Origin: Candidatus Altimarinota bacterium
GTDB lineage: Bacteria; Patescibacteriota; Gracilibacteria; BD1-5; JAGOOR01
DNA: 35,252 bases
Direction of reading: 5' to 3'
NCBI GenBank assembly: GCA_023268615.1
Contig: JALQUC010000008.1
Span: 1 to 35,252, forward strand
The notes under the pieces are model-generated. The model worked only from the letters and a program-made list of their open reading frames with translations, did no database searches and was not told where the DNA came from. A program made the translations under genes and the position numbers. This document shows, piece by piece, positions 1 to 34,310 of the stretch. Numbering within the stretch: the first letter of the stretch is position 1; every line of letters starts with the position of its first letter.

Positions 1-1
1 A

Positions 2-289
2 AGTGGTGTGAGCTTTGAGGAAATCTATGAGCTACACAAAGATATACTTGCTCCAGAACTTACCATCGTCCTCATGATATCTGTGGAGACTATGCTCGCC
101 CGACTCTGAAATAGAACTGAGGCACGAGAAATTTACGAGCAAGAAGACTTCCTCAGAAAATGCCATGCAGGCTATCTCAGTGCCATAGAATTCCTGAAAT
201 CTAAAGGCAGAAATATCGTCGTCATCGACGGAGAGGGAAGTGTGGAAGATGTAGCAGAGAGGGTGAAAAATTCTTTTCCGATAAACTAA
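2..289 (+). CDS. tmk: thymidylate kinase, C-terminal part (5' truncated by window edge)
   Basis: Code 25 translation ...HKDILAPELTIVLMISVETMLARLGNRTEAREIYEQEDFLRKCHAGYLSAIEFL...IVVIDGEGSVEDVAERV; dTMP kinase-like LID and C-terminal pattern; ends TAA. Confidence 0.6.
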
Positions 290-909
290 ATCTGTCTCAT
301 CTGTTCTCGCAAAGCAAGAAGTATTCTTTTATACGGTTCGCTAATAAGCTTGCGTAAGTATTTATCATCATCTTTTGATGTGAGGTTGAGAAGTGTCTCA
401 ATGCTGACCTCTTCGAAATCGAGGCCACTTTCACGCTCAGTATTTCTGAGTATATCATCTAGAGCCATGCGTCGATCGAGGACGTAGGCTATGACAGTTC
501 CATTATTCCATGATTTTGATACTGGATGGGGCTCATCATAGAATTCTGATATATTTCATAGAGGTATGATATCGCTTTCGGTGAAGATTGTTCCAGTTTC
601 CTCTCTTCATTCCTTGACTGCAACTCTTGGTGCAAGTTCGACTATGTTTTTTCCTTGTAAATCTGCTAAAGCATCTGGTGCACAATTAATATGCCCTCAT
701 ATAGTCGCATCGCGTCTTCCGTGACTTTTTGTTTTTATTTGTGTGAAAACTGAACCAGGTTTTTTTCCAGGTATCCATACATTCACATGACCATGACAGA
801 GTCATTTTTCATGCGCTACCCTTCGGAGGGCAATATCAACTATAGTACCATTTTTTGGTTCAAATATGGGCAGATGTTCATCTTCCGGATAGTAGGGGGT
901 GGTATTCAT
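286..909 (-). CDS. Nudix hydrolase family protein
   Basis: Rejoined across TGA codons: MNTTPYYPEDEHLPIFEPKNG...RDATIGGHINCAPDALADLQGKNIVELAPRVAVKEGREETGTIF; Nudix-box-like GGH...REETG; TAG stop. Confidence 0.7.
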
Positions 910-921
910 AGATAAATATTG

Positions 922-1938
922 TTATAGAGTATTTGTTCTGATATTGTGACCACTTAGATGCCATTGATTTCAGAGATATGCCAATGCTGTGAGAGAGCAG
1001 TTTTTTGGTGAGACTATATGTTCTAATTGTTCCGCAGCTCTGGCACTATCTTTTCAGTTTTCGCCGAGTACATAACTCACTTGCTGTCTGATAAAATCAC
1101 AGTGATTAAATGCCATTATGTGAGCATGTGGAGATGTAGTGATTGTGTCTAAAAAAGCTGATCATCGAGCTTTTGCTTCACCGAGAGATTCATAGACAAT
1201 ATCCCCTTCAATTCTTTCTAAAATTTCATCCCAGGTCGTACCTTCTGGCGATTCTCAGTTGAGAGATAGTTGTTTTACCCAGGGTATAAACTTGTCTCTC
1301 TCATGGAGAAATATTTCCCGCATTTTTGAGGGCAAGGGTAGTGAGAGATAACCATCTATTTCTGCTGTGTTATTATTCACCTGAATAGTTGTCTCTCATT
1401 CATATCATTTCCAGGGTACAACTAGCTGATCATCCCCACTCATATCGAGTATATCATCCATATTTTCATAGTCGAGCAGTCTTCCTATAGATCTGATGAG
1501 AGTCTGTCTGGTTCTCCTAAATGGAGAGATAATAATTTGAGTCGGCATATTTTGACTATTCTTGTTCCAGGCTGATTCAAAGCTCATTCATAGATTATCG
1601 GCCTGTTCTTCTCATTCTAGATCTATATGTGGGCCATGTTCTCAGGTTTGTTTGTGTATTTCTATTAATCTCACAATGATATCGAGAAGTATTTGGTAAT
1701 CGTCTTTTTCACGAGGATTCTTCGCGAGTTCTCCTCATGCAATCCTGTTGGCTGCATTGGAGAATGTCTTACCATGCCTGATATGAATAAGAGTTTTATC
1801 TCCTAGGAGTCCTTCCTGTTTTTTTCATAGGGCATGAGAGAGCCATCGAGGCATATGTGAAAATTGAGTAGGGTGTAGGGCTCAACCTTTTATCACAGGG
1901 GCGTTTTCTTCAGTTACAAAAGGGGGTGATGAATTCAT
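922..1938 (-). CDS. histidine phosphatase (phosphoglycerate mutase-like) superfamily protein
   Basis: LIHIRHGKTFSNAANRIAGGE motif, later ISPFRRTRQT and AFNHCDF; rejoined across TGA; TAA stop. Confidence 0.7.
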
Positions 1939-1993
1939 AAAATAATTAAGTTAAATTCAGAAGGGGTTGCTAGCCCCTTCTTTGAAATATTTT

Positions 1994-2131
1994 TTAGATA
2001 TTCCTGAGTGCTGCTTCTACTTGGTCAGCTATTTGCTGACGGACTATTCTCTCAAGTCCTGTTGATCTTCACTCATCCATGTCGTCTATAGGAGAGTCTG
2101 TACCGCCGAATGATTCTTTTGGAGTTTTCAT
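1994..2131 (-). CDS. small hypothetical protein (45 aa)
   Basis: MKTPKESFGGTDSPIDDMDEGRSTGLERIVRQQIADQVEAALRNI, one in-frame TGA, TAA stop. Confidence 0.4.
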
Positions 2132-2212
2132 AAAAATAAGATAAAGAATAAATATGTCTCTCAATGCAGTAATACTGAGTTTTAGTTAGGGAGGCTCCAG
2201 AGGAAAATAGGG

Positions 2213-2239
2213 TACAAAAAAGCGCTCAATTGAGCGCTT
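2213..2239 (-). terminator. Rho-independent terminator
   Basis: Perfect palindrome aagcgctcaattgagcgctt (2220-2239) followed on the minus strand by a T-run. Confidence 0.7.
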
Positions 2240-2337
2240 GTATATAGATATGATATGCGTGATAGTCCGCAGTGTTCTTCGCGGTTTTCCCGGTCAGTGT
2301 CATCCAGGTGATCAAAGGAGCTTTTTAATCATCTTGT
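2213..2337 (-). ncRNA. candidate small non-coding RNA
   Basis: Minus-strand TTGACA-N16-TAATAT about 7 nt upstream, and a perfect 20-bp palindrome plus T-run (aagcgctcaattgagcgcttttttg) at the 3' end; inner hairpin ccgc-gaagaacact-gcgg; no convincing ORF. Confidence 0.35.
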
Positions 2338-2342
2338 AAACC

Positions 2343-2370
2343 ATATTAAAATAATTGATTTATTTGTCAA
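2343..2370 (-). promoter_or_regulatory. sigma70-type promoter TTGACA-N16-TAATAT
   Basis: Reverse complement of tgtcaa (2365-2370) and atatta (2343-2348). Confidence 0.5.
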
Positions 2371-2386
2371 ATTATTTTCTCAGGAA

Positions 2387-2410
2387 TAAAAAAGCACCCA
2401 TGAGGGTGCT
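2387..2410 (-). terminator. Rho-independent terminator
   Basis: Minus strand agcaccc-tcat-gggtgct followed by TTTTTT, just downstream of the 2430-2543 ORF. Confidence 0.7.
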
Positions 2411-2429
2411 CTTTGAAAAGGAGAGAAAA

Positions 2430-2543
2430 TTATTCAGCAGATGCTGGAGTTTCTTCTTCAGCAGGAGTTTCTGTTTCAGGAGTTTCAACAGCAGGTGTTG
2501 TTGTCTCTTCTTCTTCTACTGCTGTAGTTGTATCATCAGACAT
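2430..2543 (-). CDS. small acidic low-complexity protein (37 aa, E/T/P/A-rich)
   Basis: MSDDTTTAVEEEETTTPAVETPETETPAEEETPASAE; own terminator downstream. Confidence 0.5.
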   Translation of the reverse strand: MSDDTTTAVEEEETTTPAVETPETETPAEEETPASAE

Positions 2544-2648
2544 AATAGAATGGCTAGGAAATAAGTAAGGGGAGTATAGTGACTTCTCCAATTATCCTAT
2601 TTATTATACCAGACATCCCTCAGATATGAGCTATCGCCATGTTTTATA

Positions 2649-2954
2649 TTATTTCTTCTTCGGTAATCCCCACTGCCAGCGAGGTTTTTCACCTGTTTTG
2701 TACGCGATGAAAATGAGAAGAAGGGTGAGTATGATGATTGGTCCAGCGAAAGTCAGAAAATTGCTTCCTGAATCGGGATTGCCCGGAATAGGCTCTTCTA
2801 CCATAAATGCGAGACTCAATACGAGTACGATGTAGAGGAGTGTCACGAGCCATCCCTGCCATGTCGCAGGTGTCCATCCCCAGCCGTAGATCTTGTTTTT
2901 GAACCAGAGTTTTTGAGGATTATCGTTGATGTAGTCGCGGTATTTTTGGAGCAT
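2649..2954 (-). CDS. small membrane protein with two predicted TM segments
   Basis: MLQKYRDYINDNPQKLWFKNKIYGWGWTPATWQGWLVTLLYIVLVLSLAF...LTFAGPIIILTLLLIFIAYKTGEKPRW. Confidence 0.7.
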   Translation of the reverse strand: MLQKYRDYINDNPQKLWFKNKIYGWGWTPATWQGWLVTLLYIVLVLSLAFMVEEPIPGNPDSGSNFLTFAGPIIILTLLLIFIAYKTGEKPRWQWGLPKKK

Positions 2955-2974
2955 GTATTTATTATATAGAAAAA

Positions 2975-3616
2975 TTACTTTTTGCACTCCCCACACCCAC
3001 ACCACTTCGCAAGAGGAGTCTCTGAACATTTGCATTTTTTCGCTGTGCAGATATATCTGCCGAAGAGTACGATAGCATGATGCATCGTGCGTTTCTGTTC
3101 TTCACTCAGGAGCTTTTCGAGTTTTTTATCTGTCTCTTCTGGCGTGCGAGTTTTCACAATCCCCATACGATTCATCACGCGATGGATATGCGTATCGACC
3201 CCTATAAAGGGCATATCATAGAGATGGGAGAGGACGACTTTTGCCGTCTTCACTCCGACTCCTGGGAGCGTGCGGATGGTTTCGAGGGTGTGTGGGATTT
3301 TCCCATGAAATTCTGAGACGAGTTTCTCTGCTGTCATGAAGAGATGCTTCGTCTTCACGCGATAATAGTTCACGCCTCGGAGCATGATTTCGACTTTCTC
3401 GGGTTCGAGCCTGAGGAGATCGGCAGGAGTTTTCACCAGCTGGAAGAGTCTCTTTGTTGCTTTATTGACGCCTTTGTCTGTCATCTGAGCTGAGAGCATG
3501 ACCGCTGTGAGGAGCTGAAATGGAGTCTCGAAATCCAGCTCAATCGTTTTTGTTGGATAGAGCTTGAAAATTTCAGTGAGTATTTCATCTCGCTCAGATT
3601 TTGTGCGGAGTTTCAT
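2975..3616 (-). CDS. nth: endonuclease III
   Basis: LLTAVMLSAQMTDKGVNKAT, HhH LPGVGVKTAKVVLS, VDTHIHRVMNRMG, C-terminal Cys cluster C-X6-C-X-C...C-X-C-X3-C region. Confidence 0.9.
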   Translation of the reverse strand: MKLRTKSERDEILTEIFKLYPTKTIELDFETPFQLLTAVMLSAQMTDKGVNKATKRLFQLVKTPADLLRLEPEKVEIMLRGVNYYRVKTKHLFMTAEKLVSEFHGKIPHTLETIRTLPGVGVKTAKVVLSHLYDMPFIGVDTHIHRVMNRMGIVKTRTPEETDKKLEKLLSEEQKRTMHHAIVLFGRYICTAKKCKCSETPLAKWCGCGECKK

Positions 3617-3654
3617 AAAAATAGTATATTTAAAAACGCAGAAAAGGCACAGCA

Positions 3655-3815
3655 TCCTTTTGTACTTTTTATGAAAAAAGTACCAAAATCATTCAGGACA
3701 ACAAAACTCGCTATAAACTGTATTCGTTTTTATTTCTGTATTCATCCCGCTCAAACTGTGCACTTTGCCATTCAAGGCAAATCTCCTGTCCCGAAACCCC
3801 TTTTCTGTTTTTCTC
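3655..3815. repeat. diverged copy of intergenic dispersed repeat (see 34131-34310)
   Basis: gtactttttatgaaaaaagtac hairpin, then aggacaacaaaactcgc ... gtattcat ... tgtcccgaaaccc; same order of blocks as 34190-34295. Confidence 0.45.
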
Positions 3816-3869
3816 CATAAATATCTTTTATTTGTAAAATCATTGCAAAAAATCGTCCTGCCTGCTATA

Positions 3870-5135
3870 ATGAAAACAATGAAGAAAAAAATACAGCATC
3901 TTTTCTCTCACGAGAAATGAATCGCGTATACTCTGGTAGGGGTATTTTTTTTATTGCTGTGCCACACTTTACTCTTCTTCGGTCATCAATTTCTCGCATA
4001 CCGCTATGATGTCCTCCATGAAGAAGCGACCAAAGAGGGGACACTTGTGACGATGTCGGCTGATTTTCAGATGATGCAGATGGCTGCGAGCAAGAGGAGT
4101 TTTCTCACGAGACCTGATGTGCTCATCCGTGAAATAGCGACACTGCATAACGGGGTACAGTCTCTGATGGGGCAATATCGTAATGATTTTTATCGTATGC
4201 ACGATGCCATTGCTTCCAATATTCAGTCCCTGCGTACCATTCTCGAACTCGGCGAAGAGATAGTCTTCCCAGAGAGAGAAGAGGTCAGCCGTCGTGCCAA
4301 CTATCTCGAGGGTCGTCTCAATATGAACAAGGATGAACGAGAGGAATCTCTCGAGGATCTCGTGAAGCTCTCGGGTGAGTATGTAGAAAAAGCATCCGAA
4401 GATATCGAACGAGCCAAAAAAATCCTGGTCATGGAGGATATCACATCACTCAAACATGAGATTACTTTTCTCGATTCTATCTATCGTGTGAGTGGTGATA
4501 CCACACTTGTATTTGACGCGAAAACTTTTAACAAGCTCTATCAGGAATCATTTTCCGAGAATAAATTAACACAAAAAGCAGATGAGCTCAGAGCTGCGTG
4601 GACGACTCTCTCAAATCTCCTCGATCCCTATCGCATAGAGTCTCGCGAGATTCGTCGTATTGCACGAGAAAAACGAGCAGATATCGTCGCTGAGGAAGCA
4701 AAAAAATGGATAGATAAGGAGCCACCAGAGCCACCATTTTTTGATATTTATAATCAGATATTTGTCTCACTCAAAGAGCAGATGATGTATGTCTACGAGG
4801 ATGGCGATCTCATCATGTCCACACCGATTACTAGTGGTCGTCAAAATTATGAGACTGTTCGAGGGACATTTAAAATCTATACAAAACAGCGAAACAAACT
4901 CATGAAGTCTCCATTTCCTGATGAGGAGTATGAGCTATGGGTGGATTATTGGATGGGATTCTACGGTGCCTATGGTATCCATGACACCTGTAATTCGCGT
5001 GATTGCTGGAGGACGAAATATGGGTGACCAAGCTATATCTATAATGGTAGTCATGGATGTATCAATACTCCGTACAATGCTGTGAGATTTATCTACAATT
5101 GGGCAAAAATTGGGACAACAGTGCATGTGAAATAA
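3870..5135 (+). CDS. L,D-transpeptidase (YkuD) with N-terminal TM and coiled-coil region
   Basis: Code 25: MKTMKKKIQHLFSHEKGIAYTLVGVFFLLLCH... C-term YGAYGIHDTCNSRDCWRTKYGGPSYIYNGSHGCINTPYNAVRFIYNWAKIGTTVHVK; catalytic SHGCIN lies beyond an in-frame TGA. Confidence 0.85.
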
Positions 5136-5150
5136 TGCAAAGCATTATTT
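5130..5150 (+). terminator. hairpin at 3' end of the L,D-transpeptidase gene
   Basis: aaataatgc-aaa-gcattattt perfect inverted repeat. Confidence 0.5.
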
Positions 5151-5156
5151 AATGAA

Positions 5157-5852
5157 GGCTCTAGACTAGCAAACATTACTTCATACAATGTTTGCATATG
5201 ATTAAATACAGTAAATTGAGTCAATACAAAGTTGAAAGAATTTTTTACAATTTTTTTCATGATTTTACAGCCACTCAAACATCCTTAATTTTGTCTCTGA
5301 ATCGTAATACAATCAATCTGTGGTACAGGAGATTCAGAGAGGCAATTGTTCGTTCGAGTATCCTTGAATCAAAAGAGTATGGAGAGTTTGAAGTTGATGA
5401 GAGTTACTTTGGAGCTAAGAGAGTACGATGAAAGAGAGGAAGATGAGCAGCAGGAAAGACTCCAGTATTCTGATTACTGAAGAGAGATGGGAGAGTACAT
5501 GTGAGTATTGTTCCTGATTGTAGTCGTGAATCACTTTTGCCCATCATACAAGGGAAAATACTTGAATGATCCACCATACATTCTGATGGTTGGAGAAGCT
5601 ATGATGGTCTGATTCTGAACGGATATGATCATTACAGAGTATTTCATTCAGAGAATGAATTTGTACGAGGCAAGAGTCATGTGAATTGAATAGAAGCCTT
5701 CTGGAGTTTTGCTAAAAGAAGAATGAATAAATTCAATGGTATTTCACAAGAGACATTTCACCTCCACTTGAAAGAATGTGAATTTCGGTATAATTACAAA
5801 AATTATCGTGATGCTAAAGTGATAGTTTTTAAGAATTTGCTAGTCTAGAGCC
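5157..5852 (+). mobile_element. IS1595-family (ISXO2-like) insertion sequence, apparently complete
   Basis: 17-bp terminal inverted repeats ggctctagactagcaaa (5157-5173) / tttgctagtctagagcc (5836-5852); flanking direct repeat taatgaa (5150-5156 and 5853-5859). Confidence 0.85.
5192..5848 (+). CDS. IS1595-family transposase with in-frame UGA-Gly codons
   Basis: FEVDESYFGAKRVRGKRGRGAAGKTPVFGLLKRDGRVHVSIVPDCSRESLLPIIQGKILEGSTIHSDGWRSYDGLILNGYDHYRVFHSENEFVRGKSHVNGIEAFWSFAKRRMNKFNG. Confidence 0.9.
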
Positions 5853-5929
5853 TAATGAAAAATTAATAATGAATAATGAAAAATGATGGACTCATGTAAA
5901 GTAAATTCCATCTAATTTTTGTATTGTAT

Positions 5930-6304
5930 TTAGAGTCCGGCAATCAGGAGCTCCTGTTCTATAACTCGTGCTAGATCAATAGTGGCATCGTGCGAATTGA
6001 TGTATTCTATATCGTCTGTGTCTTTTTCACTTTTCTTGAGATGAAATTCACGAGAGATATTATCGAGATTAATTATTTTATCCTCTATTCCTTCACTTGG
6101 TATAGTGATAGTAGTTGTGATTTTCTGGAGTAGGCAATTAATCCCATAGTCCTCGCGTATCAGCTTCACTGACATGATGAGACTCTCCGTGCAGACGAGG
6201 TCTTCCCAGATATCCTCGGGGATATCCTGCTCAAATTCAAATTCGAGCATACTTCACACTGGCTGAGGGAGGAGAGAGGAGATGTCTATCGTGAAGAGTG
6301 ACAT
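5930..6304 (-). CDS. hypothetical protein, possibly DUF177/YceD-like
   Basis: MSLFTIDISSLLPQPVGSMLEFEFEQDIPEDIW...DIEYINSHDATIDLARVIEQELLIAGL; C-terminal pattern resembles DUF177 but no CxxC seen. Confidence 0.45.
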
Positions 6305-34130: not shown

Positions 34131-34310
34131 GTCATTGCGAGGCACGAAGCAATCCATAATTCCACAGTGAGTTTCCTTTCTTTTACTTTTTGTGCAAAAA
34201 GTAACAAAAGCATTTAGGGGACAAAAACTCGGCCAGTTTTATCATCTCACAGTTCTGCATTCATGGACCTTAAACAGTTTGTCCCCTAAAAACCCATTTC
34301 TGGATTGCTT
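34131..34310. repeat. composite palindromic intergenic repeat (REP/MITE-like)
   Basis: Nested inverted repeats: aagcaatcca (34147-34156)/tggattgctt (34301-34310); tttaggggacaaa (34213-34225)/tttgtcccctaaa (34278-34290); hairpin tactttttg-tg-caaaaagta. Confidence 0.7.

Follow-up and report, generated by a model that had tools for sequence, protein, structure and literature searches.

Intergenic trans-acting small RNAs (sRNAs) of bacteria have their own promoter, stem-loops and an intrinsic terminator, and the unit described here shares with them these features, a length of about 120 nt and a narrow distribution, but it is a candidate known from sequence alone and matches no Rfam family. The 4.5S RNA (RF00169) is of similar length, has a stand-alone gene and carries a GC-rich hairpin, whereas the RF00169 model gave no match to the unit, whose apical loop varies. 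In attenuators and terminator-type riboswitches, as at this locus, promoter, conserved RNA and terminator are followed by an ORF of the same orientation at a fixed distance; the unit differs from them in having no visible antiterminator and no Rfam riboswitch match. Type III toxin-antitoxin loci consist of an RNA antitoxin, a terminator and a toxin gene. The order promoter, RNA, terminator, ORF is the same here, but no tandem repeats were seen in the RNA, and the ORF, of 45 codons, has no match in Pfam. No publication on sRNAs in Gracilibacteria turned up in the literature collection searched.

The window, a stretch of 35,252 nt, belongs to a genome assembly of 966 kb in 44 contigs. The dnaG gene, with 11 internal TGA codons, and similar genes remain uninterrupted only if UGA encodes glycine, which fits a genome of the SR1/Gracilibacteria type (code 25). 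We are moderately confident in reading the unit, from its sequence, as the gene of a small RNA of about 120 nt, equipped with a housekeeping-type promoter and an intrinsic terminator of its own, whose product would most likely act in trans.

Promoter and terminator signals

A consensus scan of the minus strand placed a -35 box (TTGACA) at 2370-2365 and a -10 box (TAATAT) at 2348-2343, with a 16-nt spacer and a match of 10/12; this promoter (2343-2370) agrees with the near-consensus one of the first-pass annotation. The terminator scan returned, 104 nt from the -10 box, a perfect palindrome of 20 nt on the minus strand (AAGCGCTCAATTGAGCGCTT, 2239-2220), with an 8-bp stem and an AATT loop, followed by T6 to 2216; the perfect 20-bp palindrome and T-run (2216-2239) that had been placed about 100 nt past the promoter are indeed present. 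The short unit is thus framed by a promoter and a terminator of its own, as read from sequence signals. A further hairpin with a T-run, at about 2412-2391, follows the upstream 53-aa ORF, and the RNA unit is therefore bounded on both sides.

Within the first 6 kb, promoter-like sites were not commoner than in shuffled sequences (17 vs 15.7); terminator-like sites were commoner (12 vs 3.9), with the terminator of the RNA unit ranking top. Genome-wide, 31 terminators of the same grade were found, and one of them has a promoter of at least 10/12 lying 60-250 nt upstream. Since 0.8 such pairs are expected by chance, the promoter and terminator anatomy alone proves nothing.

Conservation and distribution of the unit

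Real support for a putative RNA gene comes mainly from conservation in the congener (G001), not from the pairing of promoter and terminator. The congener is the sole other member of the genus that was compared; its assembly is 85% complete and its contig ends in rpoD. The unit is 93% identical in the two genomes, with no gaps, over 125 nt (2213-2337); for dnaG the nucleotide identity is 84% over the gene and drops to 64% at third codon positions (91% for the protein, with UGA as glycine), and for the 5' part of rpoD it is 72%. In the congener the -35 box is identical, the -10 box reads TAAAAT (one base different) at the same spacing and the terminator is also kept; the spacer and the sequence farther upstream have diverged. 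The upstream gene is an acidic 53-aa ORF here and a VIT1-family gene in the congener, and the promoter therefore travels with the RNA.

Among 147 related genomes, the unit was found in the congener only. When 353 genomes of the class were searched with a covariance model, 351 others proved to lack it, two weak extra matches resting on terminators; weak matches in G011, G019, G050, G174 and G333 were rejected as distant homologs, being mainly their terminators. The phage, plasmid and viral collections searched did not contain the unit, and two 17-nt matches in viral contigs were discarded, the remainder of the unit being missing there. The unit is single copy in both genomes, and its membership in a local interspersed repeat family was rejected on this ground.

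Predicted RNA and its fold

The predicted small RNA, of about 120 nt, would extend over 2216-2337 of the minus strand, with a start deduced from the -10 box and an end from the T-run. Single-sequence folds of the two homologs have in common a 5' hairpin of 8 bp with a 7-nt loop (2309-2331), where the sole two changes lie in the loop, a GC-rich hairpin of 5 bp (2267-2284) and the terminator; the middle folds differently. The GC-rich hairpin, expected from the first-pass annotation, is predicted as CCGCG-8nt-UGCGG, and its variable loop is AAGAACAC here and TAACATCT in the congener. A 31-nt stretch (2287-2317) is invariant in the alignment; in just one of the two sequences it folds weakly into a hairpin (2308-2289).

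The full unit has a fold z-score of -3.7, against -1.6 without the terminator, so the fold is then unremarkable. All 17 changes lie outside the predicted stems; P is 5e-4 when the three hairpins common to both sequences are considered and 4e-5 with the complete fold of the sequence from the window, both values being weakened by the bunching of the changes in about seven groups. Covariation in related genomes had been proposed as a check; in the two sequences compared the stems are unchanged, and they hold no compensatory change. The secondary structure is plausible, as modelled, and not proven.

Comparison with known RNA families

An Rfam search of the unit gave nothing at gathering level and only weak sub-threshold matches to unrelated families, in line with the earlier failure to assign it to SRP RNA. 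The identification with 4.5S/SRP RNA was rejected: RF00169 had no match in the region or the genome, and 4.5S RNA is excluded because the relatives tested have no recognisable SRP proteins or SRP RNA. RF00169 was found in 0/99 related genomes, the Ffh M domain in 0/4 genomes and the SRP GTPase family above cut-off in 0/40 related genomes, with positive controls. That many CPR bacteria lack two SRP subunits has already been reported (PMC8080830). Likewise, tmRNA was rejected as the identity of the unit, since it sits elsewhere in the genome, which also indicates that known RNAs are detectable in this genome. The candidate is probably, on this sequence evidence, a genus-restricted sRNA of no known Rfam family.

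Alternative explanations

The only ORF reported for the unit runs through the terminator, and under code 25 this is correct: a frame of 48 codons (2186-2332, minus strand) continues to a TAA at 2188-2186. Both genomes keep it open up to the same TAA, at which the conserved block stops as well, and its product is 77% identical in amino acids; the block could on these grounds be a protein gene, with a leaderless 48-aa ORF followed by the 45-aa ORF described below and a palindrome that is coincidental or regulatory. The genome has no Shine-Dalgarno signal at its starts, so the absence of one before the 48-aa ORF is no objection. However, the 20 changes in the frame are distributed 7/5/8 by codon position, against about three quarters at position three in dnaG (P about 0.001), the synonymous difference per site is 0.23 vs 0.54 in dnaG, and the codon usage scores among the lowest 2-3% when set against real coding segments of 48 codons and is wrong-frame-like in both genomes. 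A strong terminator also lies within the frame, convincing matches in protein searches came from the two genomes only, and Pfam gave no match. Protein-level conservation, named at the outset as an argument against an RNA, exists as amino-acid identity but not as a coding-like pattern of changes. We judge the frame non-coding by its codon-position pattern and codon usage, as the first-pass annotation had supposed in finding no convincing ORF; the predicted transcript would then have no protein-coding function, as judged from two genomes, and a protein gene appears improbable.

The RNA might instead be the 5' leader of the 45-aa ORF (1994-2131, minus strand, code 25), acting in cis like an attenuator or riboswitch by stopping usually at the terminator and reading through conditionally. 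This ORF has a counterpart at the corresponding position in the congener and starts, in both genomes, 82-83 nt past the terminator in the orientation of the RNA; the two are 36% identical (1/5000 shuffles as good), and the ORF is fast-evolving with coding-like codon usage and has neither homologs elsewhere nor a Pfam match. Conservation reaches about 30 nt beyond the T-run (27/31 identical, 2185-2215, up to the TAA of the 48-codon frame), and the promoter scan, which is crude, lists none between the terminator and the 45-aa ORF. The small ORF at a fixed distance and the conserved nucleotides past the T-run mean that the term "stand-alone", originally given to the unit, is not supported and has to be treated as uncertain. 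Against a leader, a search for antiterminators among nested, protein-independent pairings found no structure competing with the terminator beyond a 3-bp pairing with a terminator arm; moreover, the ORF is 36% identical where the RNA is 93% identical. We regard a leader as rather doubtful. There is also a small chance that the 45-aa ORF belongs to the same module as the RNA, a lineage-specific one in which a strongly conserved RNA is joined to a fast-evolving protein that is made only by terminator read-through, perhaps binds this RNA, and moves with it as a unit between neighbourhoods in bacteria with UGA as glycine.

Recent transfer of a DNA segment, or of the end of a mobile element, could explain the conservation without function. 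Apart from the RNA unit, nothing in window 1-6142 has a counterpart in the congener, genes from rpoD onward have one and the boundary is sharp; conversely, the protein genes of the congener contig have no clear counterpart in this genome. Apparent absences in the congener may nevertheless be missing data, given its completeness and the end of its contig in rpoD. The unit is moreover single copy in both genomes and absent from the phage, plasmid and viral collections, its promoter boxes are kept though the spacer diverged, and its changes are unevenly spread and outside the stems, all of which makes transfer very unlikely.

Proposed function and minor observations

The candidate novel small RNA of the first-pass annotation is retained, with no Rfam family, nucleotide-level conservation, unchanged stems and an ORF that is not coding-like, and without the epithet "stand-alone". 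As an sRNA gene, the unit would be transcribed from its own promoter to the intrinsic terminator into an RNA of about 120 nt. Its fold would comprise a 5' hairpin, then a linker that is largely invariant, the GC-rich hairpin, whose loop varies, and lastly the hairpin of the terminator. The RNA would most likely act in trans, by using the invariant 31-nt stretch either to base-pair with other RNAs or to bind a protein. A duplex target scan over 209 shared gene starts, which are heuristic and represent a minority of the genes, performed no better than 30 shuffles. A role as anti-Shine-Dalgarno mimic (GAUCACCU) was dropped because SD-like motifs are no commoner before the heuristic starts (2.4%) than at control positions (2.9%). 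Taken alone, the candidate would be an ordinary kind of gene; as a well-delimited, conserved sRNA candidate, it offers a starting point for studying gene regulation in a reduced lineage with no recognisable SRP or Shine-Dalgarno signal.

For the neighbouring nth gene, the contig search gave distant homologs only. A transposase-like ORF (code 25) lies at 5192-5848 of the window, on the plus strand, close to the boundary of the non-shared region. Interspersed repeats at 3655-3815 and 34174-34302 of the window begin with GTACTTTTT-N4-AAAAAGTAC and end near CCCCTAAAAACC-TTTCTG; this family, present in about a dozen copies here and in four copies in the congener, is possibly a MITE-like element. 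Two short stretches, L060:1874-2006 and L104:5337-5437, are about 92-93% identical to the congener, with no codon periodicity and no Rfam match, and are possible further RNA genes.
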